Source of the DNA: Chryseobacterium indicum
GTDB taxonomy: Bacteria; Bacteroidota; Bacteroidia; Flavobacteriales; Weeksellaceae
Reading direction: 5' to 3'
Length of the DNA stretch: 64,000 bases
Assembly (NCBI RefSeq): GCF_021504595.1
Contig: NZ_JACSGT010000001.1
Location: forward strand, 1,178,001-1,242,000
Shown here: positions 38,130-58,313 of the stretch, piece by piece
Position numbering within the stretch: position 1 is the first letter of the stretch
How the letters are laid out: each line of letters starts with the position of its first letter
Notes under the pieces: model-generated
The model's database searches: none
Told to the model about the DNA's origin: nothing
Seen by the model: only the letters and a program-made list of their open reading frames with translations
Position numbers and translations under genes: made by a program

Positions 38130-38157
38130 TTTTTATCAAACTCCTTGTAGCTATTTT

Positions 38158-38952: not shown

Positions 38953-39041
38953 CTCTTTTTGATTAAAATTCTGAGGCAAAATTGAGCGTTAAAAATCTTT
39001 AAAACAATAGTATTCAAAGGGTTTGGGCTAAATAAGAATAG

Positions 39042-39199: not shown

Positions 39200-39379
39200 T
39201 TTGTGGGTACAAAGACACATCTTGCCGTTACTTTGTTATAAATAAATACAAATATTTTACAGTTCTAAAATATTAAAACACTATTATTTAAATTGCTAAT
39301 AATCAATATTTTAAATTTTATTTAAATAATCTTTGCTGTTGAAAGGAAAAAAATCTGAGTAAAATATTTTGAACCTGCG

Positions 39380-39690
39380 TATTTTTTATATAGGTTAGAA
39401 GAATGGAAAGGGATTAATTTATGCAGGTATATATTATAAATGTGTAGAAGTTACGCAACTTCTTGTAAATACTTGTGTATATTTTATATAGGTTTAGGAG
39501 TAGAATGTGTCTTTTTTACACAGGGGTAAAATTATTGGGACACCTTCAAGATTTTTACTCAGGTAGCTGTTTGTAACTTTATTACTCAGGTACAGCAAAA
39601 ATCTGTGTCTTTTTTGTGCAGGTTGAGTAATGAAAAATGTTTAATTTATGATAGGTAAAATAATAACCTGTATAGAATTTACTCTTATTT
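39380..39690 (+). repeat. iteron-like array, about 32-33 bp period
   Basis: Ten degenerate direct repeats of the form TTTTTTnnn[C/T]AGGT. The [C/T]AGGT-type cores start at 39391, 39424, 39456 (CAACT), 39489, 39521, 39560, 39587, 39619, 39652 and a decayed 39684. Spacing is 33, 32, 33, 32, 39, 27, 32, 33, 32 bp, averaging about three helical turns. The best units share TGTGTCTTTTTT before the core. It is non-coding and looks like an array of protein-binding sites; which protein is unknown. Confidence 0.6.
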
Positions 39691-39826
39691 TTATAATAGC
39701 TGGGTTTATGGTAATGTAAAATTTTTTGTGCAATAATCTTTATATAAAGATTGGTTTGAGCTATAAAAAAATATTTCTTATTTTTGCTGAAAATTAACAC
39801 CTTATAGTTGTAGTAATCTTGCTTAT

Positions 39827-40194
39827 ATGAAAAACCTAATTATAGTATATGATGATTGGTGTCCTTATTGTATTCGTTTTTCAAAGTTGATAAAGAAATT
39901 TGATATTTTGAGAAAAATATCTTTTTTTAAGTTGAGAAAAGACAGTATTGATATTGAGAATTTTGATAATAATCTAGCACTAAAAAAATGGCTTCTTATA
40001 AAAATGGTATATGGATGTATGGTTTTGAATCCATTTATAGAATACTCAAAGAAATTCCTTTATTCTGGTTTTTCATTCCACTATTTTACTTTTTAAAGAT
40101 TACCAGAATAGGTGATTTTTTGTATGATGAATTTGCAATTAAAAGAAAAATTATTCCAATTCATTGTGATGAAAATTGTAAAATAAATTATTAG
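39827..40194 (+). pseudogene. DCC-family thiol-disulfide oxidoreductase, frameshifted
   Basis: The first frame (ATG at 39827) gives MKNLIIVYDDWCPYC, with the DxxCxxC active site of DUF393/DCC proteins, and the second frame (from 39988) continues the family with SYKNGIWMYGFESIYRIL and a hydrophobic helix, ending at 40194. Joined they give about 121 residues, the family's normal length. The switch is at a run of seven A (39982-39988) which in the first frame reads CTA AAA AAA, a perfect A_AAA_AAA slippery site; a -1 shift restores the protein. A lost A, a sequencing error or programmed frameshifting would all explain it. Confidence 0.75.
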
Positions 40195-40203
40195 TTCAAC
40201 ATT

Positions 40204-40525
40204 TTATAGCCAATAATTCAATTTGTTTTTATCAAAAGGTAAATTGAATTTATTGTAGTCATCAAAAATTTTAAGGTTATTAATCTCATTATGGGTAATA
40301 ATTTTAAGCCTTTCTATTAGATTAAAAATAGTCTTATCATCATTAAAAGTAAATTTTCTTTCTTTTAATTTTTTAGACTTTTTATATGCGTCTAAAAAAT
40401 TATCATTTTTATTTTTAATCATAATCCCGTCACAATAAAAATTAACGGTTCCTTCTTTTATAGAATTTTCGAAATTTAAATTAGGTTTATTAAGTTTTTT
40501 TAATACTTTAAAATTATTATTTGAA
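40204..40525 (-). pseudogene. RNA ligase, C-terminal fragment (split by IS982)
   Basis: The frame is open from the IS edge at 40525 to the stop at 40204. It encodes NFKVLKKLN...KEGTVNFYCDGIMIKNKND and continues with a helical C-terminus ending KNKLNYWL. The EGTV and IMIKNKN segments look like nucleotidyltransferase motifs IV and V of T4 Rnl1-type ligases. It joins in frame to the N-terminal fragment at 41502 when the IS and one copy of the 8-bp duplication are removed, giving the continuous sequence YTSNNNFKVLKK. It has lost its start and is surely not functional on its own. Confidence 0.8.
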
Positions 40526-41501
40526 ACTCGTAGTGCATTATCAAACGAGATTTATTTTTAGGTTGTTTATATTTCTATCAAAAATAAATCTATTCAAAAA
40601 CTGAATAGTTGTAAGGGTTGTAATTTTAGCCAAAATTCTTGTTTTAAAACCTTCAAAAGTTTTGGCGTAGTTTCTTCTAATCATAAATTGGTCACAAAGT
40701 TGAGAAAATAATGTTTCTATTCTCTTGCGATATTTTTTGAACTGATAGAACTGTGGTTTGTAGTCTTTTTGATTTTTCCTTTTAGGGGTTTCCAACTCTA
40801 TATTTACCTCATTGAATAAGTCTAATTGAATGCTTTGGGACAAATAACCTTTATCACCAAGCAACACACAATCAGACATTTGATGTTTTATATCCTGTAG
40901 AAAATGGATGTCGTGAACAGATGCAGGAGAAATGTCAAAACTCTGAAAAACCCCAGAAATAGAACAAACTGCATGTAATTTATAGCCATAAAAATGGAGA
41001 TTCTGCGAAGCGCAAAATCCTTTGCTGGGATAAGCGTAATCTACATCTTTACAAATCTTGCTTCTGGAACAACGGGATATTTTACATACTTCCAAAGGCA
41101 TGCTATCTACTACGAAGTAGTTTTCAAATTCATTAAATTTATCCACCATTTTCTTTCTTATTTCTTCAATAAAAGGAAATAGTTTTCGCTTTCTCCTATT
41201 GTAAACACTTCTATCAATTTTTGGTTCAATTTCAAAACCCTTTATATCTCTAAAAAGTTGATGTTCGGAATCAATGGACTTAAATTCAGCCAAAATAATC
41301 AAACTAATTAACTCTATATCAGACAGTTTTGGTTTTATTGGTTTAAAATAAAAATTTTCAATTTCTGATATTTCTCTTAAATTATCTAAAATTAAATTGT
41401 AACTTGCTTCAAGGTTGCTCATAATCGTATTTGATTGGTAGTCAATACAATATACTAATTTCTAGTTATTTGAGCAACCTTTTTTATAATGCACTGCGAG
41501 T
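40526..41501 (-). mobile_element. complete IS982-family insertion sequence
   Basis: A 976-bp element with imperfect terminal inverted repeats ACTCGTAGTGCATTAT (40526-40541) and, on the other strand, ACTCGCAGTGCATTAT (41486-41501). It is flanked by the 8-bp direct repeat TATTTGAA (40518-40525 and 41502-41509). It carries one intact transposase gene. It inserted into an RNA ligase gene. The clean ends and duplication point to a recent insertion. Confidence 0.92.
40541..41422 (-). CDS. IS982-family transposase
   Basis: A 293-residue DDE transposase, full length for IS982. The catalytic Asp is in VVDSMPLEVCK and the second in LLGDKGYLSQS; the C-terminal KKYRKRIETLFSQLCDQF carries the Glu. KSIDSEHQLFRDIKGFEIEPKIDRSVYNRRKRKL is typical of the family's N-terminus. 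No frameshift is seen, so it should be active. Two decayed relatives lie at 42160-42906 and 56742-57425. Confidence 0.93.
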   Translation of the reverse strand: MSNLEASYNLILDNLREISEIENFYFKPIKPKLSDIELISLIILAEFKSIDSEHQLFRDIKGFEIEPKIDRSVYNRRKRKLFPFIEEIRKKMVDKFNEFENYFVVDSMPLEVCKISRCSRSKICKDVDYAYPSKGFCASQNLHFYGYKLHAVCSISGVFQSFDISPASVHDIHFLQDIKHQMSDCVLLGDKGYLSQSIQLDLFNEVNIELETPKRKNQKDYKPQFYQFKKYRKRIETLFSQLCDQFMIRRNYAKTFEGFKTRILAKITTLTTIQFLNRFIFDRNINNLKINLV

Positions 41502-42165
41502 TATTTGAAGTATATTTGTTAACAGCTCCAATAGGATAAATTATGTCTTTACTATAATAGTTTAGAGTAAAAGGAACTTTTAAAGATATAATTTCAAAAA
41601 GTACAGTATGCTTTTCAATATCTTGTAGCTGATTAAAATAAAGTGTGTTGTATAATATGTCGGTTGCAATAGTGCCAGAGTAATGCTTGAAATTATTTTT
41701 ACAACATACGTAATAATTGCCTTTATATTTATATGAAATACCTAAGGCTCCATCAAGTTTTTCAGTTACAATTTTTTCCATTGGAAGTAAATCTATTATT
41801 TCTGGATAGACATCTTTTCTCTCGAAAAATTTTTTAAATGGTCGAACAATAATTTTACCAGCCTCATCTAATATTAGTCCCCTGCAAGAGAGAGTTGTAT
41901 AATTCCAATTTTTGTGTATTTTACATTTAGTTGTAAAATTGTATAACCATAGCGGAAATATTGGATGCTTAGTTTTATAGATATATCCCAACTCAATTAA
42001 AAGTTCTAATTCATCCAAACAGAAACTGTCTTGTTTTAAAAAATTAAATACTGATTGTTGCTTCCAATAAATCTTTTTTCTCCCCTCTCTAAACGAAAAA
42101 AAATTAAATGATTCGATTTCAGAAGAATCTATAGAATTACTTTTTTTAAATTCTATGTATTCGTC
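41502..42165 (-). pseudogene. T4 Rnl1-like RNA ligase, N-terminal fragment (split and truncated)
   Basis: The frame encodes the adenylyltransferase core: SCRGLILDEAGKIIVRPFKKFF followed by the nucleotidyl-lysine motif I TEKLDGALG, and YVCCKNN-type motif III-like strands, a pattern of RNA ligase 1 (RNA repair). Only a TTG lies at the apparent start (42018), and the frame stays open, without Met, to about 42165, where sequence of an IS982 remnant begins; so the 5' end is lost. The 3' end is cut by the complete IS982 at 41501 and continues at 40525. The gene is therefore dead at both sides. It was probably cargo in tRNA repair or defence. Confidence 0.8.
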
Positions 42166-42906
42166 ATCAGAATTACAGTTATTTAGATGTATTTCAGGAA
42201 CCGATTTGGACGGAAAAATTGAAAGAAGTGTCTATAATAAAAGAAAGAGAAAACTTTTACCTTACATTGAAAAGATCAGAGAAACTTTAAGCAACAAGTT
42301 TTCGGATTTTACCGATGTGTTTATTGTAGATTCAACGCCAATTGAAATATGCAAAATCAGTAGAGCAAATCGCTCGGCAATCTGCGCAACAGATGAAATT
42401 AAACCTTCTTTTGGATATTGTGCCGCACAGAAATCAAGATATTTTGGCTATAAACTTCATGCAGTTTGCGACAAGAATGGAATTTTTCATTCTTTCGATT
42501 TTTCACATGCAAACGTTCATGATGTTAATTACCTTAATGACATTAAAGAAAATTTTCAGAATTGCCTGTTAATAGGAGATAGAGGATATATCAGCAAAGA
42601 AATTCAGATGGATTTATTCAACTATTCTAGGATTAATCTTTCAGTTCCGATGCGTAAAAACCAACATGATTTTGTAGAGTTTTCAAGAACAAAATCAAAA
42701 ATCAGGAAGAGGATTGAAACCAATATCTCGCAATTGTGCGGACAGTTCACAATCAACACCAACTTTGCAAAAACATTTCAAGGTTTAGCAACAAGAATAG
42801 TGTCTAAAATAACTTCTTTTACGATGATTCAATACCTAAATTTCTTCGTATTTAAGAGAAGTTAGAACAAGCTAAAAGTTAATTTGTGCTAAATGCACAA
42901 CAGGTT
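42160..42906 (+). mobile_element. IS982-family remnant, 5' truncated
   Basis: The frame from about 42167 to the stop at 42865 encodes most of an IS982 transposase (LQLFRCISG, VDSTPIEICK, GDRGYISKEIQ, RKRIETNISQLCGQF) but lacks the first roughly 75 residues found in the intact copy. The right end at about 42890-42906 resembles the terminal repeat (AAATGCACAACAGG). The left end is missing, replaced by the ligase fragment. The protein is diverged from the neighbour, so it is an older insertion. Confidence 0.85.
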
Positions 42907-42960
42907 TTCAATAATATATTTTTGCACAATTTTTTGCAACTTGATTATCTATTATTAAAG

Positions 42961-43016
42961 TTTCGTCATAACGAAATTATACTATTTCATATAGGTCGTA
43001 AATGCGGTTATATTTG
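42961..43016 (+). promoter_or_regulatory. putative promoter with operator-like palindrome
   Basis: TATATTTG (43009-43016) matches the Bacteroidota -7 box, with TTTC (42985-42988) about 20 bp upstream as a weak -33. TTTCGT CATA ACGAAA (42961-42976) is a 6-bp inverted repeat just upstream. It would drive the secreted small gene at 43142. Confidence 0.4.
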
Positions 43017-43141
43017 CTGTGGTTTTACTAGACTGTTTTACTTTTACATAGATTAAACCGACAAATGTAGATGATGCTTCTCAAAAATGAGAAGTTGCTT
43101 CGTAAATTTTTATCCGCAATCAATCATTAAAAAACACCGCA

Positions 43142-43551
43142 ATGAAAAACAAACTATTTCTTTTGGCACTAAGTTTTTGTTTTGTAGGGACTTTTGCGCA
43201 ATCACAAAAATGTAACAAAACAATAGAGGCTTCTGACAGCATTGAAGTAATCAATGTAAAGGACGGAAATACCTACTGTGTCACAAAAAACATCACCGTC
43301 AAGGAGATTATGCTTAATGGTGGCAACCTTCTCATTAATGAGGCGTTACGGTACTGCATACCGGCACATTTACCGGCAGAAAAGACAAAGTTACTAATGT
43401 GTTGATTTACGGAAAACTAGAAACACGTAATTTGGTGATGAACCAACTTCTTGCTACTTTCCAATTATTTGGAAAAGGAACTATGGCATTCGTTAATGCG
43501 CCAACTAAAGAGGTGGCAAAGGAAGTTGATGCAACATATTCCTCCCTCTAG
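43142..43551 (+). pseudogene. small secreted protein, frameshifted
   Basis: The start encodes a good signal peptide (KLFLLALSFCFVGTFAQ) and a mature part to about codon 67 that then goes out of frame; the first frame stops at 43405. In another frame from about 43345 the sequence continues in protein-like fashion (VTVLHTGTFTGRKDKVTNVL ... GTMAFVNAP) and ends at a TAG at 43549-43551. One indel near 43340-43350 would restore a single protein of about 136 residues. I do not recognise the family. It is probably decayed cargo. Confidence 0.6.
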
Positions 43552-43593
43552 AATATATCCCTTCTAAGATTAGAAAACTGCAGAAAAGAAATT

Positions 43594-44226
43594 TCAGTTT
43601 CTCCCAAAAACTTTGATGATTGCCTCAGTCTTGTTATTCACGTGCAGTTTCTGGTAAATATTGTAGCAGTGTGCTTTTAGGGTGTTGATGGATATTTCCA
43701 GTCGTTCTGCTATTTCTTTGTAAAGATTTCCTTCCGCCAAAAGTTTCATTATTTCGTGTTCTCGCTGTGTTAGTACCGATGCTCCGTTCGGTTTTTTGTT
43801 GTTGAATAGGCGGTTTACCAATATTCTTGCAATATCGGGATTCATCGGGCTTCCTCCTGTGTAGAGATCTTTCACGGCACTGATGATAAATTCCGGTTTG
43901 CTGCGCTTTAAAATGTAGGAGGAAGCTCCGGCTTCAAGGGCTTCGAAAACGGTTTTGTCGTCTTCAAAGGTGGTGTAAACCATAAATTCTATTTCCGGAA
44001 ATCTCGGTTTTAGCTCTTTGATACATTCTAGTCCGCTGCCATCGGGAAGACCAATATCCATAAGCACAATATCGGGCTTGGATAATGGCAGGTTTTTCAA
44101 GGCGGAAGTTTTGTTGTCGAATACTCCTGTAACGGAGAAGTTTTTTTGTGTGGTGAAGATATCCAACAACAACTCCTGTATGTCGGAATTGTCTTCTACA
44201 ATGGCTATTTTTATTAAGTTTTTCAT
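43594..44226 (-). CDS. NarL/LuxR-family response regulator
   Basis: A 210-residue response regulator from the ATG at 44226 (a longer in-frame start would overlap the kinase remnant). The receiver domain has the acidic pair EDN at the start, the phospho-acceptor Asp in DIVLMDIGLPDGSG, a conserved Thr in VYTTFED and Lys in YILKRS. A C-terminal LuxR-type helix-turn-helix follows (LTQREHEIMKLLAEG ... ISINTLKAHCYNIYQKL). Its natural partner, a histidine kinase, lies just upstream but has lost most of its length. The regulator itself is intact. Confidence 0.9.
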   Translation of the reverse strand: MKNLIKIAIVEDNSDIQELLLDIFTTQKNFSVTGVFDNKTSALKNLPLSKPDIVLMDIGLPDGSGLECIKELKPRFPEIEFMVYTTFEDDKTVFEALEAGASSYILKRSKPEFIISAVKDLYTGGSPMNPDIARILVNRLFNNKKPNGASVLTQREHEIMKLLAEGNLYKEIAERLEISINTLKAHCYNIYQKLHVNNKTEAIIKVFGRN

Positions 44227-44252
44227 TATAAAAATGGTTTCCTGTTGTACAA

Positions 44253-44520
44253 CTATCTTTTGGCAATTTTCGTTTTCAAGGTATAGCTCGTTCCGAAAGC
44301 CCCGGTTAAACAAGAGTATTCCGCGCCTACGTACGTCATTCTGTCGGTTATGTTTTTCAGTCCGTTGCCTTTGGATTGTTCAGCGTCATTTATTCCTTTT
44401 CCATCATCCGCTATTTTTATGCAGAGTTTGTCTTGTTCCACATAAAATTCCAGAAGAACTTGTTCAGCGTCGGAATGTTTTGCAGCATTGTTGATGATCT
44501 CTTTTGCCGCCAAATAAAGA
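44253..44520 (-). pseudogene. histidine kinase, C-terminal ATPase fragment
   Basis: The frame SLYLAAKEIINNAAKHSDA carries the N box, and DDGKGI (G1) and NGLKNI (G2) follow, so this is the HATPase end of a NarX-type kinase. Everything upstream, including the dimerisation His, is missing. The frame changes at about 44520 into the sequence of MgtE. The stop is 26 bp before the response regulator start, the normal arrangement of a kinase-regulator pair. Confidence 0.85.
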
Positions 44521-44857
44521 CTTCTTCTTTTTTACCTTCGGAAAGTTCTGAAATGATATCAGCAGCATCATCGGAATCCATTTCCTGAATCATTTCTTCT
44601 GCTATTTCTTTGGCAGAAAAAGATTCTATTAGTTTTCCTCGCTCATCCTCATCAAGTTCTAGTAATACAGAGGAAGAAATATCGTTATCTATACAATCTA
44701 GTAAGAATTTTTGTTCAGTAACGGTAAATTCTTGTAGCAGTTCGGCTATATCAGCAGGGTAAAGTTCTTCCAACAACAGTTTAGACTGCATAATATTTCT
44801 TTCGGAAATACAGTTTTGCAAAGAAGGAATAATATGTTGGAAATTTTGCTCAGCCAT
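44521..44857 (-). pseudogene. mgtE: MgtE magnesium transporter, N-terminal fragment
   Basis: From the ATG at 44857 the protein reads as the cytosolic MgtE N domain: repeated helices such as ELYPADIAELLQEF, LDEDERGKLIESF and MDSDDAADIISELSEGKKEEV. At about residue 113 the similarity ends at a junction with the kinase fragment and the frame continues only as out-of-frame kinase sequence to 44417. The CBS and membrane domains are missing. A deletion joined two unrelated genes here. Confidence 0.85.
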
Positions 44858-44994
44858 GGGAATAATGCGAATTCTAAATGCTTCTGCGAAAGTACAAATT
44901 TAAAGCAAGTTAAACAAAATAGTATTGTTCTTACCTTAGTTTGTATATAAAACATCAATTCCACAATTCCACAATTCCAAAATAAATGTACTAA

Positions 44995-45029
44995 AACCAG
45001 AAACGCCGTAGTCTATTGTAGACTACTCC
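44995..45029 (+). repeat. 35-bp repeat with hairpin, copy 1
   Basis: Starts AACCAGAAACGCC, then the inverted repeat GTAGTCTA-TTG-TAGACTAC (45008-45026), then TCC. The same 35 bp recur at 45228-45262 except that the 3-nt centre is CAA instead of TTG, which is its reverse complement. The two copies bracket a 200-bp segment upstream of the DGR target gene. Confidence 0.75.
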
Positions 45030-45195
45030 TAGTGGTTTAAAATTCTAATAATGAGTTGTTTAGAAAAAAAAACTAACCAAAAGGGGCAAAAAATGGGGTG
45101 CAAAAAAAGCGATTATAGAGCCATATATTCAAGATATGGTAACTCTTTATAAAACAAAGACAAAAGGGTAAAATGTTGGTTATTAGTAAATTTTA

Positions 45196-45226
45196 TTTGC
45201 AGAAAAGAAATATGTACTTATATTTG
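45196..45226 (+). promoter_or_regulatory. Bacteroidota-type promoter of the DGR target gene
   Basis: TTTG (45196-45199), a 19-bp spacer and TATATTTG (45219-45226) match the phylum's -33/-7 consensus exactly. Transcription would begin near 45232, so the hairpin repeat at 45228-45262 would lie at the very 5' end of the mRNA, about 80 nt before the ATG. Confidence 0.75.
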
Positions 45227-45227
45227 C

Positions 45228-45262
45228 AACCAGAAACGCCGTAGTCTACAATAGACTACTCC
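45228..45262 (+). repeat. 35-bp repeat with hairpin, copy 2
   Basis: Same as the copy at 44995-45029, with palindrome GTAGTCTA-CAA-TAGACTAC at 45241-45259. It starts within two bases of the predicted -7 box and would form a hairpin at the 5' end of the target-gene transcript. Confidence 0.75.
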
Positions 45263-45340
45263 ATTTCTACCAAGGAAAAAAATTGAAGTAGAAACACACA
45301 AAATCTACAAAAAGTATTAATTAAAAAAACGTTTAAAAAA

Positions 45341-46573
45341 ATGAAAAAAAGAATTTTATGTATGAGTGCCTTGTTTATAGGTGCTTTATCTTTTGCACAA
45401 ACGGGCGTAGGTATAATGACCGAGAAACCACAAGGAACCTTCCACGTAGATGCCGTAGGTGATAACGCTACTACAGGCACACCGACCACCGCACAACAAG
45501 CTAATGACTTTATTGTTACCAATACAGGTAATGTGGGTATTGGTACTACGACGCCTAACGCAAGTGCTTTGCTACAAGTAGAAAGCACCACCAAAGGCTT
45601 TTTGCCTCCACGAATGACCAACGCCCAAATGAAGGCTATTGCCAGCCCAGTAGATGGGCTTATGGTGTACAACACTACTTTAAACTGTATGGCGTACCAT
45701 ACCAATGGTTCTTTTAACTGTACACACAATGCACCAAGCCTACCAGCACCTACTGCTCCACTTGGGAGTACTTATACCGCTCATTTTAATGGTATTACAG
45801 CAGGGGTTTCTGTAAACAATACTTTAGCTACTTACACTACTGGCGAAACTTTCGACCAAAATGCTACTTGTGCTAATAGTATGATATCTGCTCAGGGTTG
45901 TGGTGTATTGACTACCGTAACAGGTGCTAGTGGTACAGTTTACAATTTGGTAAACATCAACGGACAGTGCTGGATGACTACTAACTTAAAAGAAGTACCT
46001 ACCAACTTTTCTGGTTATACGGCAACCAGTTGGTTAGCTACCACCCCAGGCGACCAAGGCTATTGGGGGTATTACAACACCGCTACTACCAATGGTACTG
46101 CCGGTTGGGGAGTTGCCGAACCAGCTGCTAACGAAGGCTTATTATACCAATGGAGTGCTGCTATGAACAACTCTATTACCGAGCGTAGCCGTGGCGTTTG
46201 CCCACAAGGTTTTCATATACCCAGCGACTGTGAGTGGATGTACTTAGAGCACGGACAAGGAATGGCATTGAGTGAGCAAATACTAACAGGTTGGAGATCC
46301 AATACAGCAGACAACCAAGGTACCCCCGGTTACAAACTGCGTAGCCAAGGCGCTGGGCAAACCAACGCCTCTGGATTTTCTGCCCTGCTTGCAGGCAGCC
46401 GCAATACCTCTGGCACGTTCAGCAATCGTTCGTCTTACGGCCTCTGGTGGTCGTCATCGGCTTCGGGGACGTCTAATGCTTTCTTCCGCACCTTGGGCAC
46501 TGGCAGCCGTGGTGTGTACCGCTACGCCCTCAGTAGAGCGTACGGCTTTAGTGTTCGTTGTCTCAAGGATTAG
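45341..46573 (+). CDS. DGR target protein: secreted, C-type-lectin-like (FISUMP) with variable C-terminus
   Basis: A 410-residue exported protein. The signal peptide ends at LSFAQ; residues 21-110 hold a GVGIMTEKP and LPPRMTNAQ module also seen in the protein at 38158. Residues about 190-410 resemble the Fibrobacter-succinogenes-type paralogous (FISUMP) C-lectin fold: NINGQCWMTTNLK, CPQGFHIPSDCEWMYLE, WWSSSASGT and the final FSVRCLKD. The last 60 residues are the VR. Fourteen codons between residues 353 and 401 differ from the template: S353, S357, S361, Y366, L368, F382, T384, G386, S389, Y393, Y395, L397, S398, Y401. These form the expected ligand-binding face. No C-terminal sorting signal is visible. 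It is the diversified product of the DGR. Confidence 0.93.
   Translation: MKKRILCMSALFIGALSFAQTGVGIMTEKPQGTFHVDAVGDNATTGTPTTAQQANDFIVTNTGNVGIGTTTPNASALLQVESTTKGFLPPRMTNAQMKAIASPVDGLMVYNTTLNCMAYHTNGSFNCTHNAPSLPAPTAPLGSTYTAHFNGITAGVSVNNTLATYTTGETFDQNATCANSMISAQGCGVLTTVTGASGTVYNLVNINGQCWMTTNLKEVPTNFSGYTATSWLATTPGDQGYWGYYNTATTNGTAGWGVAEPAANEGLLYQWSAAMNNSITERSRGVCPQGFHIPSDCEWMYLEHGQGMALSEQILTGWRSNTADNQGTPGYKLRSQGAGQTNASGFSALLAGSRNTSGTFSNRSSYGLWWSSSASGTSNAFFRTLGTGSRGVYRYALSRAYGFSVRCLKD
46377..46569 (+). repeat. DGR variable repeat (VR)
   Basis: The 3' end of the target gene, aligned without gaps to the template at 47767-47959 (offset 1390). There are 19 differences in about 193 bp, and each is at a position that is A in the template (to T 8, G 6, C 5). 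The last 28 bp (46542-46569) are identical and would hold the initiation-of-homing site; immediately after it the copies diverge (T TAG in VR, C TAA in TR). Confidence 0.95.
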
Positions 46574-46619
46574 ATTTATTGGATATTTGATTTATTTAAG
46601 CGAAAATTTTTTATAAAAC

Positions 46620-46670
46620 AAAGAAGTAAAAAAATATAAGACATTTGTTTTTATGTTTTTTTGCTTCTTT
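46620..46670 (+). terminator. 19-bp hairpin downstream of VR
   Basis: AAAGAAGTAAAAAAATATA (46620-46638) pairs over 19 bp with TATGTTTTTTTGCTTCTTT (46652-46670), with two G-U pairs and a 13-nt loop. It begins 50 bp after the VR end. In known DGRs a hairpin or cruciform just after VR aids target recognition; this one is AT-rich and may instead, or also, be a terminator of the target gene. Confidence 0.55.
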
Positions 46671-46687
46671 TTATATACTCTGAAAAT

Positions 46688-47128
46688 ATGACACTAGCAG
46701 AAAAAATAGAGTTTCAAAATATTCATAAAGATAAAGTGTGTGTATTCAAAGAAGGCGTATTTTATAAGGTATATAATGAGGGTGTTTTTTTACTACAAAA
46801 GTTGAATTATAAAACCACAGTAAAACAATATCAAAAAACAAAAGAAAAGTATGTAAGTATAGGTTTTCCAGAGAGTGTGTTGGAAAAACTCAAACTTCAA
46901 TATAAAACTGTGGGGAATGAAAATACTAATAATCTTATGTTATACTATGGTAGTATATTTGATGAGTCTGATTTTAAAAATTGGAAAAATAAAATGCTAC
47001 TTACAGAAAACGCATCATCTAAAAGTGATATTTTAATTGAAATAAAAAATTATCCGTTGGCAAGTAAAACACCCATAGAAGTTTTTATGTGGGTAGCTGC
47101 AATGCAACAAAAACTAAAAGACCAATAA
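46688..47128 (+). CDS. DGR accessory protein, MutS-domain-I-like (MSL)
   Basis: A 146-residue protein from the ATG at 46688. The start has the pattern of MutS domain I: KDKVCVFKEGVFYKVYNEGV corresponds to the VLFRMGDFYELF-type mismatch-recognition strand of MutS, and alternating strands and helices follow. MutS-like (MSL) open frames are a reported class of accessory gene in DGR cassettes, and this gene sits in the cassette between target and avd. The Phe-x-Glu of MutS is not conserved, so its DNA binding may differ. The family call is moderate; the position is strong. Confidence 0.65.
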   Translation: MTLAEKIEFQNIHKDKVCVFKEGVFYKVYNEGVFLLQKLNYKTTVKQYQKTKEKYVSIGFPESVLEKLKLQYKTVGNENTNNLMLYYGSIFDESDFKNWKNKMLLTENASSKSDILIEIKNYPLASKTPIEVFMWVAAMQQKLKDQ

Positions 47129-47246
47129 ATATAAAGGATTTGATATTTTGACCATTTTGTCATCCGACGAAGGAGGAATCTCAAAAGTAAATCATCACAT
47201 CAACTATAAATAGAATATGCAAACAATATTAAGTTAATAAAAAAGT

Positions 47247-47606
47247 ATGGCAATCTACACCGAACTAAATGTATATAAAAGCACCTATAATTTACTTTAT
47301 GAACTGTTGGCAGCTTCTCGTAGTTTTAACCGAGATTTTAAATATACCTTGGGCGAAAACCTAAAAAATGAAATGATAAATGCGATGATGTATGTATGGC
47401 GTGCCAATAGTAATTATGATAAGATAAGCTACATAGATATGGCAAGAGAGAGTATAGAAAAGTGTAGGTTATACATTCGCTTATTATATGATTTACGACA
47501 AATAAGTATAGAAAATTATACCAAATGGAACATTGCCATTCAAAACATAAGCAAACAACTCAGCGGATGGAGCAAAAGTGAAACTGAAAAAGAAATAAAA
47601 ATTTAA
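47247..47606 (+). CDS. avd: accessory variability determinant (Avd-like four-helix protein)
   Basis: A 119-residue protein, all helical, basic, with VYKSTYNLLYELLAASRSFN at the start and YIDMARESIEKCRLYIRLLYDLRQI in the middle. This is the four-helix-bundle family (bAvd, S23-like) that binds DGR RNA and reverse transcriptase as a pentamer. The size agrees with known Avd (about 120-130). It precedes the TR by 160 bp, the usual order avd-TR-RT. All features expected for function are present. Confidence 0.9.
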   Translation: MAIYTELNVYKSTYNLLYELLAASRSFNRDFKYTLGENLKNEMINAMMYVWRANSNYDKISYIDMARESIEKCRLYIRLLYDLRQISIENYTKWNIAIQNISKQLSGWSKSETEKEIKI

Positions 47607-47766
47607 AAAAAAGTGTTCTGCCAGAGTTTCCATAACCAAGGTTATAGGAAAGCGTGCATTTTAATCCAGCAATCCACCGAAAATTTAGCAATAAAATCGG
47701 TAGTACAAAACTCTTTTATCTGAAATAGGATACTAGAGCAAGAAAAAAGAAGGAGTGATTGCTATA
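47607..47766 (+). other. TR RNA leader region between avd and TR
   Basis: A 160-bp non-coding stretch between avd and the template. It contains a short hairpin ATAACC-AA-GGTTAT (about 47632-47645). In studied DGRs the RNA that serves as template includes sequence between avd and TR, so this part is probably transcribed and structural. No promoter is seen. Confidence 0.45.
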
Positions 47767-47959
47767 TTTCTGCCCTGCTTGCAGGCAACCGCAATACCAA
47801 TGGCACGTTCAACAATCGTTCGTCTAACGGCAACTGGTGGTCGTCATCGGCTTCGGGGACGTCTAATGCTTTCAACCGCAACTTGAACACTGGCAACCGT
47901 GGTGTGAACCGCAACGCCAACAATAGAGCGAACGGCTTTAGTGTTCGTTGTCTCAAGGA
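47767..47959 (+). repeat. DGR template repeat (TR)
   Basis: A non-coding 193-bp copy of the target gene's 3' end. Read in the target frame it holds 12 AAC and 5 AAT codons; all 12 AAC and 2 of the 5 AAT are changed in VR. It lies between avd and the reverse transcriptase, as in the classic cassette, and ends 40 bp before the RT start codon. Confidence 0.95.
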
Positions 47960-48000
47960 CTAAAAATACGGAACACATTTTTTTTAATAAAACCCTAAAA

Positions 48001-49140
48001 ATGAAATACAAAGAAGATATACTACAAATGCTATTTAAAGCCTATTTTGATGCCAGAAAGCACAAAAGAAACAAACAAAGTCAACTTCTTTTTGAATTGC
48101 ACCTTGAGGATAATATATTTAATTTGTACCACGATATTGTAAACAAAACTTATACACCAGGTACTAGCATTTGTTTTGTGGTAAACAAACCTGTAAAAAG
48201 AGAAATTTTTGCAGCCAATTTTAGAGATAGAGTGGTGCATCATTTTATCTTTAATATCTTAAATCCTTTAGTAGAAAAAATATTGTTGCACGATGTATAT
48301 AGTTGTCGCAAAAATAAAGGCACATTATTTGGCATTAATAGAGCGTATAGCAAAATGCAATCTTGTTCTAATAATTTTAAAGAAAAAGCCTTCGTAATGA
48401 AATTAGATATTGCAGGATATTTTATGAATATTAATAAAAACCTGTTGTTTGATAAAATTGAGGCAATAATAGACCAAAACGAATTGTTTTTGCCCATTCA
48501 ATCTAATTTGTTAAAGTATTTGGTTTCAGAAAACATTTATCATAACCCCACAAAAGATTGTGTTTTTCAGTCGCACAAAAGCGAATGGTCAAATTTGCCT
48601 AAAAACAAAAGCTTGTTTGGCACAAATCAAAATTGTGGTTTGCCCATTGGCAACTTAACTTCACAATTATATGGCAATTTATACCTAAATGAATTTGACC
48701 ATTTTATAAAAAAAGAGTTAGGTATAAAACAGTATGGTAGGTATGTAGATGATTTTTATTTAATGCACACCGATAAATCCGTTTTAATAGGAGTTATCGA
48801 AAAAATAAAACTTCGTTTATTACACATAGATAAATTAAAATTGCACCCAAAAAAAATATACCTGCAAAACATATACAACGGTTTTGGTTTTTTGGGCATA
48901 TATATTTTACCTTATCGCAAATATATAGGCAAGCGTATAAAAACTGGTTTGTATAACGCTTTAGCAAAAATAAACAATGGTTTTTTTACTTCATTGCAAG
49001 TAGAATTAGAAAGATTACAGTCCTATACAAGTATGCTAAAGCACCACAACTGTTTTGCATTACAAAAACAAATAGATTTATTACTTGAGTTTGCTTTATC
49101 AAAGCACAAATATTCACCTTTAAAACTTCAAAATGTATGA
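48001..49140 (+). CDS. brt: DGR reverse transcriptase
   Basis: A 379-residue group II intron-like reverse transcriptase from the ATG at 48001; upstream in-frame GTG lies in the TR and is not used. Motifs visible: MKLDIAGYF (motif 3, catalytic Asp), GLPIGNLTSQLYGN near residue 215-222 with the DGR-type IGxxxSQ in motif 4, YGRYVDDFYLM with the YVDD box at about 248-251, and HPKKIYLQ plus a GFLGI segment in the thumb. There is no maturase or endonuclease domain. SQ in motif 4 and the context mark it as an error-prone DGR enzyme. The stop overlaps the next gene by 4 bp. Confidence 0.95.
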   Translation: MKYKEDILQMLFKAYFDARKHKRNKQSQLLFELHLEDNIFNLYHDIVNKTYTPGTSICFVVNKPVKREIFAANFRDRVVHHFIFNILNPLVEKILLHDVYSCRKNKGTLFGINRAYSKMQSCSNNFKEKAFVMKLDIAGYFMNINKNLLFDKIEAIIDQNELFLPIQSNLLKYLVSENIYHNPTKDCVFQSHKSEWSNLPKNKSLFGTNQNCGLPIGNLTSQLYGNLYLNEFDHFIKKELGIKQYGRYVDDFYLMHTDKSVLIGVIEKIKLRLLHIDKLKLHPKKIYLQNIYNGFGFLGIYILPYRKYIGKRIKTGLYNALAKINNGFFTSLQVELERLQSYTSMLKHHNCFALQKQIDLLLEFALSKHKYSPLKLQNV

Positions 49141-50525
49141 AAATAAAATTAGTAGCAATTGCGTTGTTTATCACAATCTCCACATTTGCCCAAACCACGA
49201 AAGACAGCATTGTTATTAGTGGGCATTTAAAAAACAACACTCGCTTTGCTAAAGTAGTGGTACAAAAATTTGGCGTAGGCAGTTTTGCTATTGCAGCGGT
49301 GCCTATAAAAGACGGAAAATTCAGCATTACAGCCCCTGCAAATTTAGAATCTGGCGTTTATAGATTTCAGTATAGCCAAAGCAGCTTAACCGATTATATA
49401 GACCTTATTATTGACGGCAAAGAAAAAAACATAACTTTTGAATTAGATGTTTTGCAACCTAAAGAAAGCAGAATACCTGTTTTTACCGCATCGGAACTAA
49501 ACAAAAAATGGTACAGTTACCAAAAAGAAAGCAACTTACAGCTCCAAAAAATAGAATTACTAAATGGGGTGCTGGCACAATATCCCAATCCTAAAGACAA
49601 AATTGTTACGCAAATAGAAAAAGCAGCAGCCAAGGAAATAAAGGATTTTAATAAAAATTTTAAACAATTTTGCCAAGAAAACCAAAACAACTGGGCGGGT
49701 GCAATGGTGCAAAACAAGCCCTACTATTTTACCAGCCCCAAAGAAGATTACCGTTTGCAGAATTTTGAACGCAGAGCGCACTACTGGGATAATGTAAACA
49801 CCAATGACCCAAAATTGATAAACTCACCCCTCTATACCGATAGAATTTTGCAGTATATACAGTATTATATGAACCCCGAAATGCAGTATGGCGAAGAAGA
49901 AATGAATGAAGGGTTTAAAAATAGTGTGGATACCATAATGCAAAAATTTGGCACTAATGAAGAAACCAAAAAATTTGCCATAAAATACTTACAATTGGGT
50001 TTTAAAGAAATAGGCAACGAAAGCGTATTGCAATACATAGATGAAAAATATGCTTCTGTTTTAGCACAATGCAACGATGCTAACCTTGACAAAGCCGCCT
50101 TTGAAAAGAGAATGGAAGGCTATGCCGCTATGAAAATAGGAAACCAAGCACCGGATATTGAGTTGAAAATGGAAAGTGAAAAGTGGAAAGTAAAAAGTTT
50201 GTATGAAATAAAAACCGAGCAAACTATAGTTGTTTTTTGGGCGAGTTGGTGTCTGCATTGTATGGAAGAAATGCCTAAACTAAATGAATGGGCAAAACAA
50301 CACCCCAACACTACCGTACTTGCCATAAGCCTTGACGAAGACGCTACTGCCTACAAAAACGCAATAAGAAATTATCCCAATATGGTACATAGCTGCGATT
50401 TCAAAAAATGGGAAAGCAAACCAATTCAAGAGTATTATATCGTAGCTACTCCTACTTTTATAATGTTGGATAAGGATAAAAAGATAGTCGGTAAATACGT
50501 AAACATTAATCAAATAGTAGAATAA
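49137..50525 (+). CDS. TlpA-like thiol-disulfide oxidoreductase
   Basis: A 462-residue exported protein with a signal peptide ending at TFAQ. Residues about 20-120 fit the DUF4369 beta domain, a helical spacer follows, and the C-terminal 140 residues are a thioredoxin fold with the active site WCLHC near residue 370 (VVFWASWCLHCMEEMPKL) and a cis-Pro loop ATPTF. It would work in the periplasm. It overlaps the reverse transcriptase stop (ATGA), so it may be transcribed with the DGR. The active-site dipeptide is Leu-His rather than Gly-Pro or Pro-Pro. Whether it serves the disulphide-containing target protein is only a guess. Confidence 0.88.
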   Translation: MKIKLVAIALFITISTFAQTTKDSIVISGHLKNNTRFAKVVVQKFGVGSFAIAAVPIKDGKFSITAPANLESGVYRFQYSQSSLTDYIDLIIDGKEKNITFELDVLQPKESRIPVFTASELNKKWYSYQKESNLQLQKIELLNGVLAQYPNPKDKIVTQIEKAAAKEIKDFNKNFKQFCQENQNNWAGAMVQNKPYYFTSPKEDYRLQNFERRAHYWDNVNTNDPKLINSPLYTDRILQYIQYYMNPEMQYGEEEMNEGFKNSVDTIMQKFGTNEETKKFAIKYLQLGFKEIGNESVLQYIDEKYASVLAQCNDANLDKAAFEKRMEGYAAMKIGNQAPDIELKMESEKWKVKSLYEIKTEQTIVVFWASWCLHCMEEMPKLNEWAKQHPNTTVLAISLDEDATAYKNAIRNYPNMVHSCDFKKWESKPIQEYYIVATPTFIMLDKDKKIVGKYVNINQIVE

Positions 50526-50600
50526 TTTACTTTTTATTATAAAATAAAAACAATATTTAAAATTCAACATTTAAAATTTAAAATTTAAAATATAATTAAA

Positions 50601-50879
50601 ATGGCATTTGAAAACTTAATCAGCATACAATTTACCGAAGCAGAATTGTCTCAGTTAGATGCTGCTATGGCCAGCATTGCGCAGGTATTGCAGGGCAAAA
50701 CCATCAACCTTACCCCTGCGCAGCGGCAGCAGTACGGCAGCATTGCCGAACAGAACAAACTCTTTGTGAATAAGGCTAAGGAGTTTATGGAGCAGTACCC
50801 ACAACATATACCCGCTTTTCTAAACAGGTGGCAGCAAGTTGGGAAGCAGCCAACACCCAGCTTGAAAGGTGCAAAATAA
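50601..50879 (+). CDS. conserved small protein, unknown family
   Basis: A 92-residue soluble protein, helical, with NLTPAQRQQYGSIAEQNKLF in the middle. It is more GC-rich than neighbours. I believe this kind of short protein recurs in Bacteroidota genomes but know no function. Preceded by an AT-rich spacer; no neighbour overlap. The start fits a short leader region with AATTAAA. Confidence 0.65.
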   Translation: MAFENLISIQFTEAELSQLDAAMASIAQVLQGKTINLTPAQRQQYGSIAEQNKLFVNKAKEFMEQYPQHIPAFLNRWQQVGKQPTPSLKGAK

Positions 50880-51145
50880 ACCGTTCCATAGAAAATTAGG
50901 ATGCCACGGGTAAATACACGCTCCCCTCCAAATAGCGAAAAAGATTTAGATGAACTACTGCTTTTTTTTTGCATTAAGAAAAAAATATGCAGATTAGTAT
51001 ATTGATTTACAGTTTTTTACCGATTTTTTTTGACCAGATACTGCCTACACCAATTTCCTCTGTTTATTGGAAAATATCATGTTGAGGTAACGAAAAAATC
51101 TTATTTTGAGGCGGTGAAGCCCCACCTATCTTTGCAGTCAGAATT
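50880..51145. other. intergenic region before a promoter
   Basis: 266 bp, GC-richer at first, then AT-rich. The only signal is the promoter-like pair at 51105-51134. Confidence 0.5.
51105..51134 (+). promoter_or_regulatory. putative Bacteroidota-type promoter
   Basis: TTTG (51105-51108) and TATCTTTG (51127-51134) with an 18-bp spacer match the phylum consensus. It would transcribe the open frame at 51187 and the hairpin at 51206. Confidence 0.55.
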
Positions 51146-51186
51146 TTGCATCTGAAAACACACATGATGAGAGAAGGTTCCACCAA

Positions 51187-51738
51187 GTGGGTAACCGCCC
51201 AAAATGCAATCCCCCCGAAAAAAAAAACTTCGGGAGGGATTTGCTTTTGGCAATGCTTCTTAGCTTACCCTCGCTATTTTTTTCCGAAGAACCTGCCCAT
51301 CTTGAAAATGCGGATGCAGCACCTTCCCAAATCATCTCCGGCATCAGCAATGTATATGTAGCGGATAATGCAGTACTAACAGTACAAACCGACACCAATA
51401 AAGTCCCACAGGAAGAAGCAACACAAAAAAAATCTAAAACCCCCGTCGCGAAAATTTGGCAAAATAAGGAGAAAAAGATCCTTCCCAAAAAAGTGGAAGC
51501 GCCTGTTTCGAAATGGGCATCCAACGACCCGGAAAGCACGCAGTCTCTGTACAGCTCACCACTTTCAAAATTATCCGTCAGTAGCAATAGCTTTCAGTAC
51601 CACTTTTCCATTATACACTATTATCCTTACATCAATAAAAAATTCAGCTCGGCAAAGGACAAAACACCCCTTTCGGAAAACCTTTTCAACATCATCTTTA
51701 GTGGCGGTATTTCAGGCAGGGCTCCACCGCTGCTATAA
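51187..51738 (+). CDS. possible secreted hypothetical, start unclear
   Basis: An open frame whose only nearby start is GTG at 51187. Residues about 18-33 are hydrophobic (LLLAMLLSLPSLFF), and the rest is polar, Lys/Ser-rich and ends in a Tyr/Phe-rich part. A different frame beginning ATG at 51164 (MMREGSTKW) runs into it across a run of ten A (51218-51227) at the top of a hairpin. Thus the gene may be frameshifted, or the 5' part may be a hairpin regulator. No family is recognised and coding status is uncertain. Confidence 0.4.
   Translation: MGNRPKCNPPEKKNFGRDLLLAMLLSLPSLFFSEEPAHLENADAAPSQIISGISNVYVADNAVLTVQTDTNKVPQEEATQKKSKTPVAKIWQNKEKKILPKKVEAPVSKWASNDPESTQSLYSSPLSKLSVSSNSFQYHFSIIHYYPYINKKFSSAKDKTPLSENLFNIIFSGGISGRAPPLL
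51206..51244. other. strong hairpin with A10 loop
   Basis: GCAATCCCCCCGAA (51206-51219) faces TTCGGGAGGGATTTGC (51229-51244) with one mismatch and one bulge; the loop is a run of A. On the minus strand the loop would be a T run. It resembles a terminator stem, yet no gene ends here. Confidence 0.5.
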
Positions 51739-51910
51739 AACTTTCCAAAAAAACTTTTGCCATCCCAATTACTATTTCATAAAAAAATAAACATGGTCTA
51801 TTCCGTTCAAGGAGATGATTTTGATTTACCTCCTTTGTTTTTGATGAAGGCATAATTTGAAAATCAGTATTTACGTAATCAATATCTCACTGTACAGATA
51901 GATCTATATA

Positions 51911-53350
<1,440 letters not shown>

Positions 53351-53373
<23 letters not shown>

Positions 53374-53770
53374 TAACTAAAAAGGAAAATCTTGGCCCTG
53401 CTTGTACAAACAAATAATTTTGTTCATTATATTTTATAGGATAAGTCTTAAAGTATATTGGGATGCTCAAAAAATTATTTGCATAAAGTGTATTTTTTCC
53501 TCCCTTTTCACCAGTTTGAATATATTCTATTTGCGGTTGAATATAGAAAATAGGATTTTCGCATGAACAAAAAATACCTACTGGGATCCTAGTAAAAGCC
53601 CCCATAAAAAAAGAATATCTAGGAGAAGAAGGATTATGTGCATGATGTATTTGAGATAAATTTGGACCTAATATAAAACCAAATTTTGCTCTTCGAAAAT
53701 CTAGTTGAGCTTTTAAATTTGTAGATAAGATTGTAATAAAAATCAAAAAAAAATTTAATGTTAATTTCAT
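53351..53770 (-). pseudogene. outer-membrane beta-barrel protein, 3' truncated by IS
   Basis: The signal peptide ends at NLKAQ, followed by FGFILGPNLSQIHH and alternating beta strands ending QAGPRFSFLV, typical of PorT-family/OMP_b-brl proteins. The native frame runs into the IS at about 53373, and the last seven codons are IS sequence. About 60-80 C-terminal residues, including the last strands, are missing, and I find no matching piece beyond the other end of the IS. Probably non-functional. Confidence 0.75.
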
Positions 53771-53813
53771 TTTTTATATTGTTTATTTTAGGTTATTTTA
53801 AAGTTTTATATAT

Positions 53814-54299
53814 TTAATACCCCCATATTGTTTGTGAAATTCTACTTTCAAGACTTAAAATATCTTTCTCATTAAAATATTCTAATGATATATTGATTTT
53901 ATTTATACACCCATTTTTTTTAAAATAAATAATACACAATAAGTTCGATGAATAATCGACGTAAACATTATGCATGTAGATAAAATCAACATTAACTTTT
54001 TTTCCTCTTTTTTTCAAAAAAGATTCAAAAATTGATTGATAATAGCAGTTAATCCCATTTTTACCAATTAAAAAACTTGTATATTTTATTTTATAATAAG
54101 GTAGAGAAATAAAAAATATTAAGAAAAGAAAATAAAAGACAAATGAAGGATACGAGACAAAATTATATTTAATATTAACTAATAAAACCAACAGAATTAG
54201 AGTTAATACTATATTACAAATTATTAAAAAATATTTTATTTTATTAATTTTTATTTTATTGTTAATATTCATATTTTTTATAAGAAAATCTTTAGACAT
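53814..54299 (-). CDS. two-transmembrane hypothetical protein
   Basis: A 161-residue protein with two adjacent membrane segments (about residues 24-45 and 50-68) and a soluble C-terminal half of about 90 residues with alternating strands. It resembles small PH-domain-like or immunity-type membrane proteins, but I cannot name a family. It is very AT-rich. Neighbours are short genes on the same strand with 60-bp gaps, consistent with a cluster of small immunity-like genes. Confidence 0.6.
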   Translation of the reverse strand: MSKDFLIKNMNINNKIKINKIKYFLIICNIVLTLILLVLLVNIKYNFVSYPSFVFYFLFLIFFISLPYYKIKYTSFLIGKNGINCYYQSIFESFLKKRGKKVNVDFIYMHNVYVDYSSNLLCIIYFKKNGCINKINISLEYFNEKDILSLESRISQTIWGY

Positions 54300-54361
54300 T
54301 AGAGATATTTAACTACATCTACACTATTGCTTAACATACTTTAATTGGATAGCCATATTTA

Positions 54362-54562
54362 TTAAAACCATTTCGCCTTAATAAGAACCTTGACTAAAAT
54401 ATTATCCTCAAAAAATAAAAAAAGAATGTTTTTTCTGAAATACCATTTTTTTCTTAAATGATAAGACCAAATGGTAGAAGGATAAAAATTAAATTCATCA
54501 CCAAGTTCAGCAAGTATTTCTTTTTTTGATTTTCCAATTAAATTCTGGTAATCTTTTTCCAT
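54362..54562 (-). CDS. BamE/SmpA-like small domain protein
   Basis: A 66-residue protein: IGKSKKEILAELGDEF then a strand-turn-strand SYHLRKKWYFRKNILFLFFEDN and VKVLIK. This is the alpha-alpha-beta-beta pattern of SmpA/BamE-like domains, without a signal peptide. Function unknown. It lies in a run of small minus-strand genes. Confidence 0.5.
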   Translation of the reverse strand: MEKDYQNLIGKSKKEILAELGDEFNFYPSTIWSYHLRKKWYFRKNILFLFFEDNILVKVLIKAKWF

Positions 54563-54614
54563 AATTTCTGTAAAAGAATCTAATTAAGGAGTAACATCTA
54601 AGCTTAAAATTATT

Positions 54615-54995
54615 CTAATGTTTACATTGGACGGTAATAAATTTTTGATCATTCCAATATTTATTTGGGTTAGGGGCAAAACACCAACATTTAAGATTCA
54701 TTATTTCATCTGCAAAAATTTCCCATTTGTCTATATCATAATTGTAATAACCAATATTAAAATAACTTGAATCATCCTTATCATAAACAATTACTAAAAC
54801 AGAAAAAGGTTCATTGTTAGTTCTTGGTGGCAACATGTTCATAGGATAAAAAATATCAGTCCTAAAATTTGATGGTAATTGAATTATATCATCAAATAAG
54901 TTAATTGCTTTATGTCTTTCCTCTTCACAATTTTCCAATGGATTCTGACTTTCGTTTTGTCTATTTTCCTTATAGCGCTTAAAAATTTTAAACAT
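54615..54995 (-). CDS. hypothetical protein, DUF551-like
   Basis: A 126-residue soluble acidic protein. The centre, LPPRTNNEPFSVLVIVYDKDD and KWEIFADEIMNLKCWCFAPNP, follows the pattern of DUF551-like proteins (LP....VLV..... W....H W.P.P). It is in a group of short AT-rich genes. No function is known; such small proteins often act as immunity factors, which is only a guess here. Confidence 0.55.
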   Translation of the reverse strand: MFKIFKRYKENRQNESQNPLENCEEERHKAINLFDDIIQLPSNFRTDIFYPMNMLPPRTNNEPFSVLVIVYDKDDSSYFNIGYYNYDIDKWEIFADEIMNLKCWCFAPNPNKYWNDQKFITVQCKH

Positions 54996-55061
54996 TGTCT
55001 TTCCCTATTAAAAATTAATTATTTAAGTTTAAAACTCAATTTTTTTTAAAAACAAAAACAT

Positions 55062-55120
55062 CCTCCGTGAAATAAATACAATAAAAAGAAAATTACTAAT
55101 TAACTTAAAAAGTACGGAGG
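55062..55120. repeat. inverted repeat 1, 7-bp stem
   Basis: CCTCCGT (55062-55068) and ACGGAGG (55114-55120), with a 45-nt AT-rich loop. The GC-rich arms stand out in an otherwise AT-rich region. On the minus strand it is followed by a T-rich tract. Confidence 0.45.
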
Positions 55121-55513
55121 CTTTAAAACAAAGTATGAAATTAATTTACAGCAACAAATACAACTCAAACAAATTATTATTGTACTATAAGTAAAATCAT
55201 ACATTTGAAGCAAAAAATATTATTGTTAAATATTTTTAAAAGTTTATTTATAACATTCTTTTTTATCAATACATTCTAAAATTTTCATTAAATTCTATAA
55301 TCGATTTTATATGATATGGTGTAATACTTATACACTCTTCTTTCAAAAAAAAACTCCGATCATATAAAAGGTCTAATAAAATATAAGTGTAAATGAAAAT
55401 AACCGAAGAAAAACATAAAACAAGATTTTAATATAAATTTTTAACATGTGTCTTGAGAAAAAAATATATTCAATGTTTTTAAATTTTTTAAATTTACTAC
55501 TATTTCTTTAAAA

Positions 55514-55571
55514 GCCTCTGGTATAGCCTAAAAACACAATAAGGGAAGAAAAAACTTCAAATACCAGAGGC
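55514..55571. repeat. inverted repeat 2, 11-bp stem
   Basis: GCCTCTGGTAT (55514-55524) and ATACCAGAGGC (55561-55571), perfectly complementary with a 36-nt loop. The minus-strand copy is followed by TTTTAAAG, so it could terminate minus transcripts. Confidence 0.5.
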
Positions 55572-55629
55572 CAAGAATTACTACTTTTTTAATTTTATCT
55601 AGACTATTAAAAACTATTTATTTTTAGAA

Positions 55630-55679
55630 TCTCCGGCTATAAAAAATGATTATAACACAAATAAAAATCAAGCCGGAGA
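55630..55679. repeat. inverted repeat 3, 9-bp stem
   Basis: TCTCCGGCT (55630-55638) and AGCCGGAGA (55671-55679) with a 32-nt loop. It lies 50 bp after the stop of the Skp-like gene on the minus strand. Confidence 0.45.
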
Positions 55680-55729
55680 ATCATTACAACAAACTAATAA
55701 TTTAAAAGCTAGAACAAATGATTGTATAT

Positions 55730-56527: not shown

Positions 56528-56741
56528 TGTTTGTGTTTTTATCATTATATTTTGTACATAAGTGATGTGGCAAAATTAGCAAGCAGACATCAGTATAGAA
56601 ATAGCACTTTTTAGTTATGTAAAAAGCTGGCATTTATAAAATAAGCCTTTATAAATTGGTGAAATCTAATTTTATTGGTTAATTTTAGCAAGTTTTACTA
56701 ATACTTTTTCATTATATTTAGAAAAACAATAAAAACATATA

Positions 56742-58308: not shown

Positions 58309-58313
58309 AACTT

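Follow-up and report, generated by a model that had tools for sequence, protein, structure and literature searches.

An intact diversity-generating retroelement on a chromosomal island with conjugation genes in Chryseobacterium indicum

Diversity-generating retroelements (DGRs) occur in plasmids and conjugative elements, as stated in parts of PMC8867640, which also cite the surface display of a DGR lipoprotein of Legionella. For DGRs of Bacteroidota, a MutS-like accessory protein of family PF01624 (MSL) is already named in parts of PMC10053308, and phage DGRs are described in sections of PMC3240598 as carrying a GC-rich stem of 7-10 bp with a GRNA loop, 4-34 bp after the variable repeat (VR). 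The locus presented here lies in a stretch of 64,000 nucleotides of Chryseobacterium indicum (contig NZ_JACSGT010000001.1, positions 1,178,001 to 1,242,000; in the following 'the window') and is an intact DGR, borne by a chromosomal island together with genes for conjugation. Both the MSL gene and DGRs of conjugative elements have been reported before; the leader of the template and the link between MSL and the accessory variability determinant (Avd) are less expected.

The cassette and its adenine-directed repeat pair

The target gene, the MSL gene, avd, the template repeat (TR) and the reverse transcriptase (RT) gene follow each other in one orientation between 45196 and 49140, with VR at the end of the target (Table 1), and all four genes are open, with neither internal stop nor frameshift. 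A preliminary description of this DNA had proposed this order of parts at this place, genes without frameshifts and an RT with IGxxxSQ and YVDD motifs; its overall reading is supported, anatomy and location were correct, and the active-site motifs of the RT (IGNLTSQ and YVDD) are undisrupted.

TR and VR form a 196-nt repeat pair (174 of 193 positions identical by BLAST). Over 194 compared positions they differ at 20, of which 19 are template adenines, replaced by T (9), G (6) or C (4), all of them in missense codons. With 47 A among the 194 positions, the hypergeometric probability of at least 19 of 20 differences at A is 1.2e-12, and a chance repeat is ruled out by this bias. Fourteen of the 17 AAY codons are altered, each to another residue and none to a stop. 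A search of the genome with TR matched TR and VR only, and further DGR targets were found neither by TR DNA nor by PF09603, which matches the target and the translated TR.

The same positions vary among relatives of the target. In an alignment of the target with its 34 closest homologues (n=35; chosen by closeness rather than as confirmed DGR targets), the 17 columns that are AAY in the TR of the window have a mean entropy of 3.10 bits and agree with the window protein at 11.5% identity. In the remaining VR columns these values are 1.03 bits and 71%, and in the domain before VR (204-346) 0.75 bits and 77%. The variation in target homologues sits at the positions predicted by TR. The target matches PF09603 (117.4 bits) and TIGR02145, begins with a signal-peptide-like N-terminus and, by fold comparison, has VR at the end of a C-lectin-type fold, which agrees with the earlier proposal of a signal-peptide-bearing FISUMP/C-lectin-like protein. 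The structural list of VIA-align comprises Foldseek's candidates only, and folds outside this list may also match; a PDB sequence search with the target gave no match. The target is likely a secreted, lectin-like protein, and it may be displayed on the envelope; no anchor was found on it, nor was a lipid anchor identified.

The RT is of the DGR type by its motifs and by matches to PF00078 and phrog_1423, with the solved reverse transcriptase 8ub7 as a further match (3e-23). An assignment to group II introns or retrons was rejected, their NCBIfam matches being far under the cut-offs and TR, VR and avd being present. Among 197 genomes of the family the RT occurs in four, the other three at 45-51% identity; the nearest full-length relatives in named genomes have about 49% identity, and metagenome proteins reach up to 87%. 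No second RT of DGR type was found in the genome at E 1e-20, and its other RVT_1 gene lies 377 kb away from the DGR. RT relatives in 94 phage records all have less than 60% identity, and a phage origin was dismissed; likewise, RT relatives in 61 plasmid records are all below 60% and no plasmid matched the DGR stretch by DNA, which speaks against a plasmid as the source of this DNA. A related DGR with FISUMP-like target, MSL, Avd and TR is present in a genome of the same genus (G171, L119:7623-13187), where an RT frame of 275 aa is followed by an IS5-type element with 85% DNA identity to 51905-53316 of the window.

Table 1 Features of the DGR and of the surrounding element in the window
Feature	Position	Strand	Basis
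Promoter-like motif TTTG-N19-TATATTTG, 5' of target	45196..45226	+	motif reading only
Target gene, FISUMP protein, 410 aa, signal-peptide-like N-terminus, VR at C-terminus	45341..46573	+	families, fold
Variable repeat (VR)	46377..46572	+	repeat pair with TR
AT-rich hairpin between target and MSL genes	46613..46674	+	folding, weak (z -1.9)
DGR accessory gene for MSL, a MutS domain I protein extended by two C-terminal helices	46688..47128	+	profile, locus comparison, fold
avd, accessory variability determinant	47247..47606	+	PF22296, phrog_3206
Structured RNA leader of the template, relative of Rfam RT-7 (RF03028)	47620..47769	+	51.9 bits (gathering 116.8), E 3e-11; hairpin covariation
Template repeat (TR)	47767..47962	+	repeat pair with VR
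DGR reverse transcriptase (RT), 379 aa, IGNLTSQ and YVDD intact	48001..49140	+	profiles, motifs, 8ub7 match
Transfer block (MobC, TraM, TraJ, TraG, MobB relatives among genes)	17969..38979	-	profiles, element comparison
Cargo stretch holding the DGR	39226..57600		18.4 kb here; 3.7, 11.6, 26 kb in three relatives with both sides
PRTRC block (ThiF, B, E proteins, single-strand binding protein)	57601..63358	-	profiles, element comparison

Two smaller features of the preliminary description stand in part. The proposed promoter corresponds to a motif (TTTG at 45196-45199, 19 nt, TATATTTG at 45219-45226) that resembles the -33/-7 promoter consensus of Bacteroidota, and is retained as a candidate. 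The proposed hairpin exists as an AT-rich stem beginning about 40 nt past VR, but 5 of 200 shuffles fold equally well and it is unlike the phage-DGR type. Directly 3' of the promoter-like motif lies the second of two copies of a 35-nt sequence (44995-45029 and 45228-45262, 91% alike) with the palindrome GTAGTCTA-NNN-TAGACTAC; the genome has no third instance of its exact core pattern. At the other end of the cassette, the ATG of a thioredoxin-like gene (49137-50525, + strand) overlaps the RT stop codon (ATGA), and the two may be translationally coupled; this gene was rejected as a DGR part, weak relatives being present in three of 86 locus sequences and not recurrent.

The template leader and the MutS-like protein

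The RNA just before TR has a covarying structure and is related to RT-7. Folding of 47600-48010 gave a z of -3.1, and of all Rfam families RT-7 is matched best in the window, over its full length and up to the start of TR; its score is under the gathering value and marks the leader as a relative rather than a member of that family. A box, GCCRGAR, starts 13 nt past avd; DGRs of Bacteroidota, Patescibacteria, Omnitrophota and others also have this box 5' of TR, along with a hairpin of variable sequence, RAGYGNGC and an AATCC-like box. Among 71 sequences (the window and 70 loci) the box was found in 48, of which 42 were aligned; L014 and L033 were left out as near-copies, and L016, L041, L051 and L068 as doubtful there. 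In these 42 sequences 87.4% of the cells pair, as compared to 34-47% when the structure is slid, and 90 cells are doubly changed against a shuffled mean of 22.3. The scored structure omits the RNAalifold pair 14-72 and includes pair 21-66, which forms in none of the 42 sequences and is counted in the totals.

RT-7 was found at the box under the E-value threshold in 9 of 14 other loci (7/8 and 2/6); it was absent at that threshold in two Bacteroides phages, a Segatella plasmid and L066, and an Rfam search at gathering found it in none of 10 loci. When 44 further loci were searched with a model built of the leader (R1), 18 matched at E 0.1 and 14 at E 0.001; among them, L012, L014 and L033 resemble seed rows and L016, L041 and L068 match at other or shifted places. 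The same model gave nothing at E 0.01 in 25 other bacterial stretches (best 0.04) and nothing in five of seven sources with other DGRs, the remaining two, both Bacteroides phages, giving a partial 20-bit match. In 52 of 60 sequences with the leader, the window among them, the part that follows it is repeated on the contig, and 1048 of the 1156 mismatches of these repeats are at template A, L016 being an exception (3 of 12). In 50 of the 52 the repeat starts 47-166 nt past the leader (median 83). In L057, L059 and L069 the RT lies upstream of avd and the leader still stands 5' of TR; the leader therefore accompanies the template rather than the RT gene.

A helix closing TR was rejected, as the duplex energies were no better than those of shuffles (mean z -0.2 over the 22 loci scored out of 26). 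The best ungapped pairing of the 12 nt 5' of the box with sequence 3' of TR was somewhat above cross-locus pairing (permutation P 0.0014; 33 sequences scored out of 38 taken from the 42 in the alignment, near-copies included). Among the papers listed by our literature search, which did not include the first description of RT-7, none could be tied to RT-7 in DGRs; that description is reportedly by Weinberg and others in 2017.

Avd is identified as the accessory protein by bAvd (PF22296, 44.4 bits over a cut-off of 40) and phrog_3206, and it scores 54.9 with the NCBIfam Avd model, under the cut-off of 80. MSL carries MutS domain I by profile (PF01624 MutS_I, 25.2 bits, with the cut-off at 20.6) and by fold; it has no match in NCBIfam or PHROGs, and a PDB sequence search returned nothing relevant. 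MSL is present in 27 of 87 DGR locus rows. We consider it almost an even bet that MSL does not bind mismatches and, having kept no more of MutS domain I than the fold, serves Avd and the template RNA as a structural partner. In favour of this, no MSL sequence out of 33 has the mismatch-contact glutamate of the FxE motif (the position holds K in 18, R in 6, H in 4, Q in 3, V in 1 and I in 1) while the host genome's own MutS has FYE, and in six DGR loci MSL and Avd share one reading frame, these fusions being without MSL's own C-terminal motif. All 33, however, retain the GFP motif as well as the phenylalanine of FxE, and the structural matches of MSL include MSH3, which is not known to have the FxE pair. 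Since the glutamate occurs in none of the 33 sequences, we do not claim mismatch binding by MSL as demonstrated. Possible, though rather unlikely in our estimate, is the more specific idea that in this large class of DGRs the RT-7 RNA is a conserved 5' domain of the template RNA, on which Avd and MSL (in some DGRs a single protein) dock, and that MSL guards the mismatched duplex of cDNA and target from host mismatch repair, by which the mutations introduced by the RT would persist. According to parts of PMC12875486, mutS was deleted in the strain of one assay, which was expected to help preserve DGR substitutions, and another, insertion-based assay showed no effect of mutS.

The island and its cargo stretch

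The preliminary description had placed the DGR between a transfer block and a PRTRC cassette, and indeed both flank the stretch that holds it. In five related elements from congeners the transfer side is matched in all five and the PRTRC side in three, with spacings between the sides of 3.7 kb (G220), 11.6 kb (G222) and 26 kb (G201) as compared to 18.4 kb in the window. Because this spacing varies among elements, 39226-57600 behaves as a cargo stretch. The TraG-type ATPase matches TIGR03783 over its cut-off, and models of MobB, MobC, TraM and TraJ are matched under theirs; transfer genes and a relaxase, as in an integrative and conjugative element, are present, and so are an integrase (window-equivalent 68757-69974) and an empty site. 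Three congeners compared at the site of the island (of 38 genomes with a match) align collinearly with the window genome to its left and right; about 90 kb (window-equivalent -17.9 to 72.2 kb) are absent from them, with 0.2, 0.4 and 1.9 kb in their place. The transfer block matches plasmid p1 of Chryseobacterium sp. JJR-5R (NZ_CP139138) over 7.7 kb with 73% identity and full coverage. Of 98 sampled genomes, 45 have a TraG match at E 1e-50, which is close to full length in 22 (the window's included), and MSL was found in the window's own genome only; a place of the DGR in the core of the element is not supported.

Transposase genes lie near the DGR (IS982-type, 40541-41422; DDE, 42155-42865; IS5-type, 51919-53265). 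At 43594-44857 (- strand) an intact LuxR-type response regulator stands beside a HATPase fragment (86 aa) and a truncated MgtE_N piece, and these fragments suggest an old rearrangement next to the DGR. Between transposase genes, 41455-42018 (- strand) has a partial match to the T4 RNA ligase 1 family (PF09511, 31.2 bits). The TraG-family ATPase (31309-34497, - strand) contains a DnaJ-type J-domain (about residues 616-692) between two VirB4-like halves; as congener matches of 84-90% identity span nearly its whole length, the insertion seems common to the element family. Genes of defence type occupy 2671-12788, where Lamassu-type genes with a metallo-beta-lactamase-fold subunit (LmuA/LmuC matches, 2671-5631) are followed by a four-gene set (8260-12788) in which two genes weakly match JetC and JetD and which may be a diverged Wadjet.

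Proposed function and comparison with known systems

We assign a probability of about 0.88 to the reading that an intact DGR, on an island with conjugation genes, is predicted to diversify the end of a likely secreted, lectin-like gene. Its observed basis is the set and order of parts, the adenine differences, the hypervariable codons in relatives, the covarying leader and the position between transfer and PRTRC genes. Leader and TR would form one transcript bound by Avd and RT; the error-prone RT would copy TR with random bases at adenines, and the cDNA would be fixed into VR, so that the copy replaces the end of the target gene. The 17 AAY codons, each with 15 possible residues by the code, would lie on the binding face of the C-lectin fold of an exported protein and could alter ligand binding. 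MSL presumably works with Avd on the template complex; perhaps it holds the mismatched duplex of cDNA and VR, so that host mismatch repair spares the newly written bases. The element could take the cassette along when it moves.

Several findings weigh against this assignment. The single non-adenine difference between TR and VR is a silent C/T in the last codon; the scores of RT-7, 33 to 78 bits, are below gathering in every locus tested; neither structural model (target, MSL) has a Foldseek match at E 0.001; the ends of the element were not found, and direct repeats were not convincing; and the PRTRC side was not seen in G233 and G020 within the stretch compared. The stem after VR is AT-rich and does not follow the phage type, but since that feature is reported for phage-related DGRs, its absence is no bar to membership.

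It is improbable that the DGR was once active and is now silent cargo, either unexpressed or no longer homing. The transposase genes and the MgtE_N/HATPase pieces (44253-44857) in its stretch would fit such a history, as would the short RT frame before an IS5-type element in the related DGR of G171; yet target, MSL, avd and RT are all intact here, and a long-silent copy would have gathered changes other than those at A, where nearly all TR/VR differences lie. That the diversified protein is a mating adhesin, a surface fibre of the host which the element varies and thereby widens recipient choice, a conjugative counterpart of phage tropism switching, is more doubtful still, as the DGR sits in a general cargo stretch, no anchor was found on the target, and none of the 97 other sampled genomes carries MSL although 21 of them carry the TraG of the transfer block, so that transfer does not need MSL.

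With an intact DGR on a conjugative element, a cassette for programmed evolution could travel between Bacteroidota together with defence genes. Through the RNA leader, templates can be sought even where the target is not known, and a likely role can be given to an Rfam family that had been an orphan. For the MSL gene, known as an accessory but unexplained, the fusions with Avd and the lack of the glutamate provide a testable hypothesis on how DGR mutations may escape mismatch repair.

With the DGR of the Bordetella phage BPP-1 (mtd, avd, TR, brt) the present locus shares the order of target, avd, TR and RT and the adenine-directed variation of a C-lectin-type target. BPP-1 differs in its phage tail target, in a GC-rich hairpin after VR, in having no MSL gene annotated between mtd and avd, and in giving no match to R1. 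The DGRs of Bacteroidota with MSL (PMC10053308) have the same PF01624 accessory protein, and the window's RT stands apart from its nearest full-length counterpart in named genomes at the identity given above. Compared to the DGRs of plasmids, conjugative elements and Legionella, the locus lies on a Chryseobacterium-like element with PRTRC genes and has a FISUMP target without an identified lipid anchor. Plasmid p1 of JJR-5R is a circular plasmid with a similar transfer block, and the DGR stretch itself matched no plasmid record by DNA. RT-7, although below its gathering score, is matched over its full length directly 5' of TR, here as in other loci.

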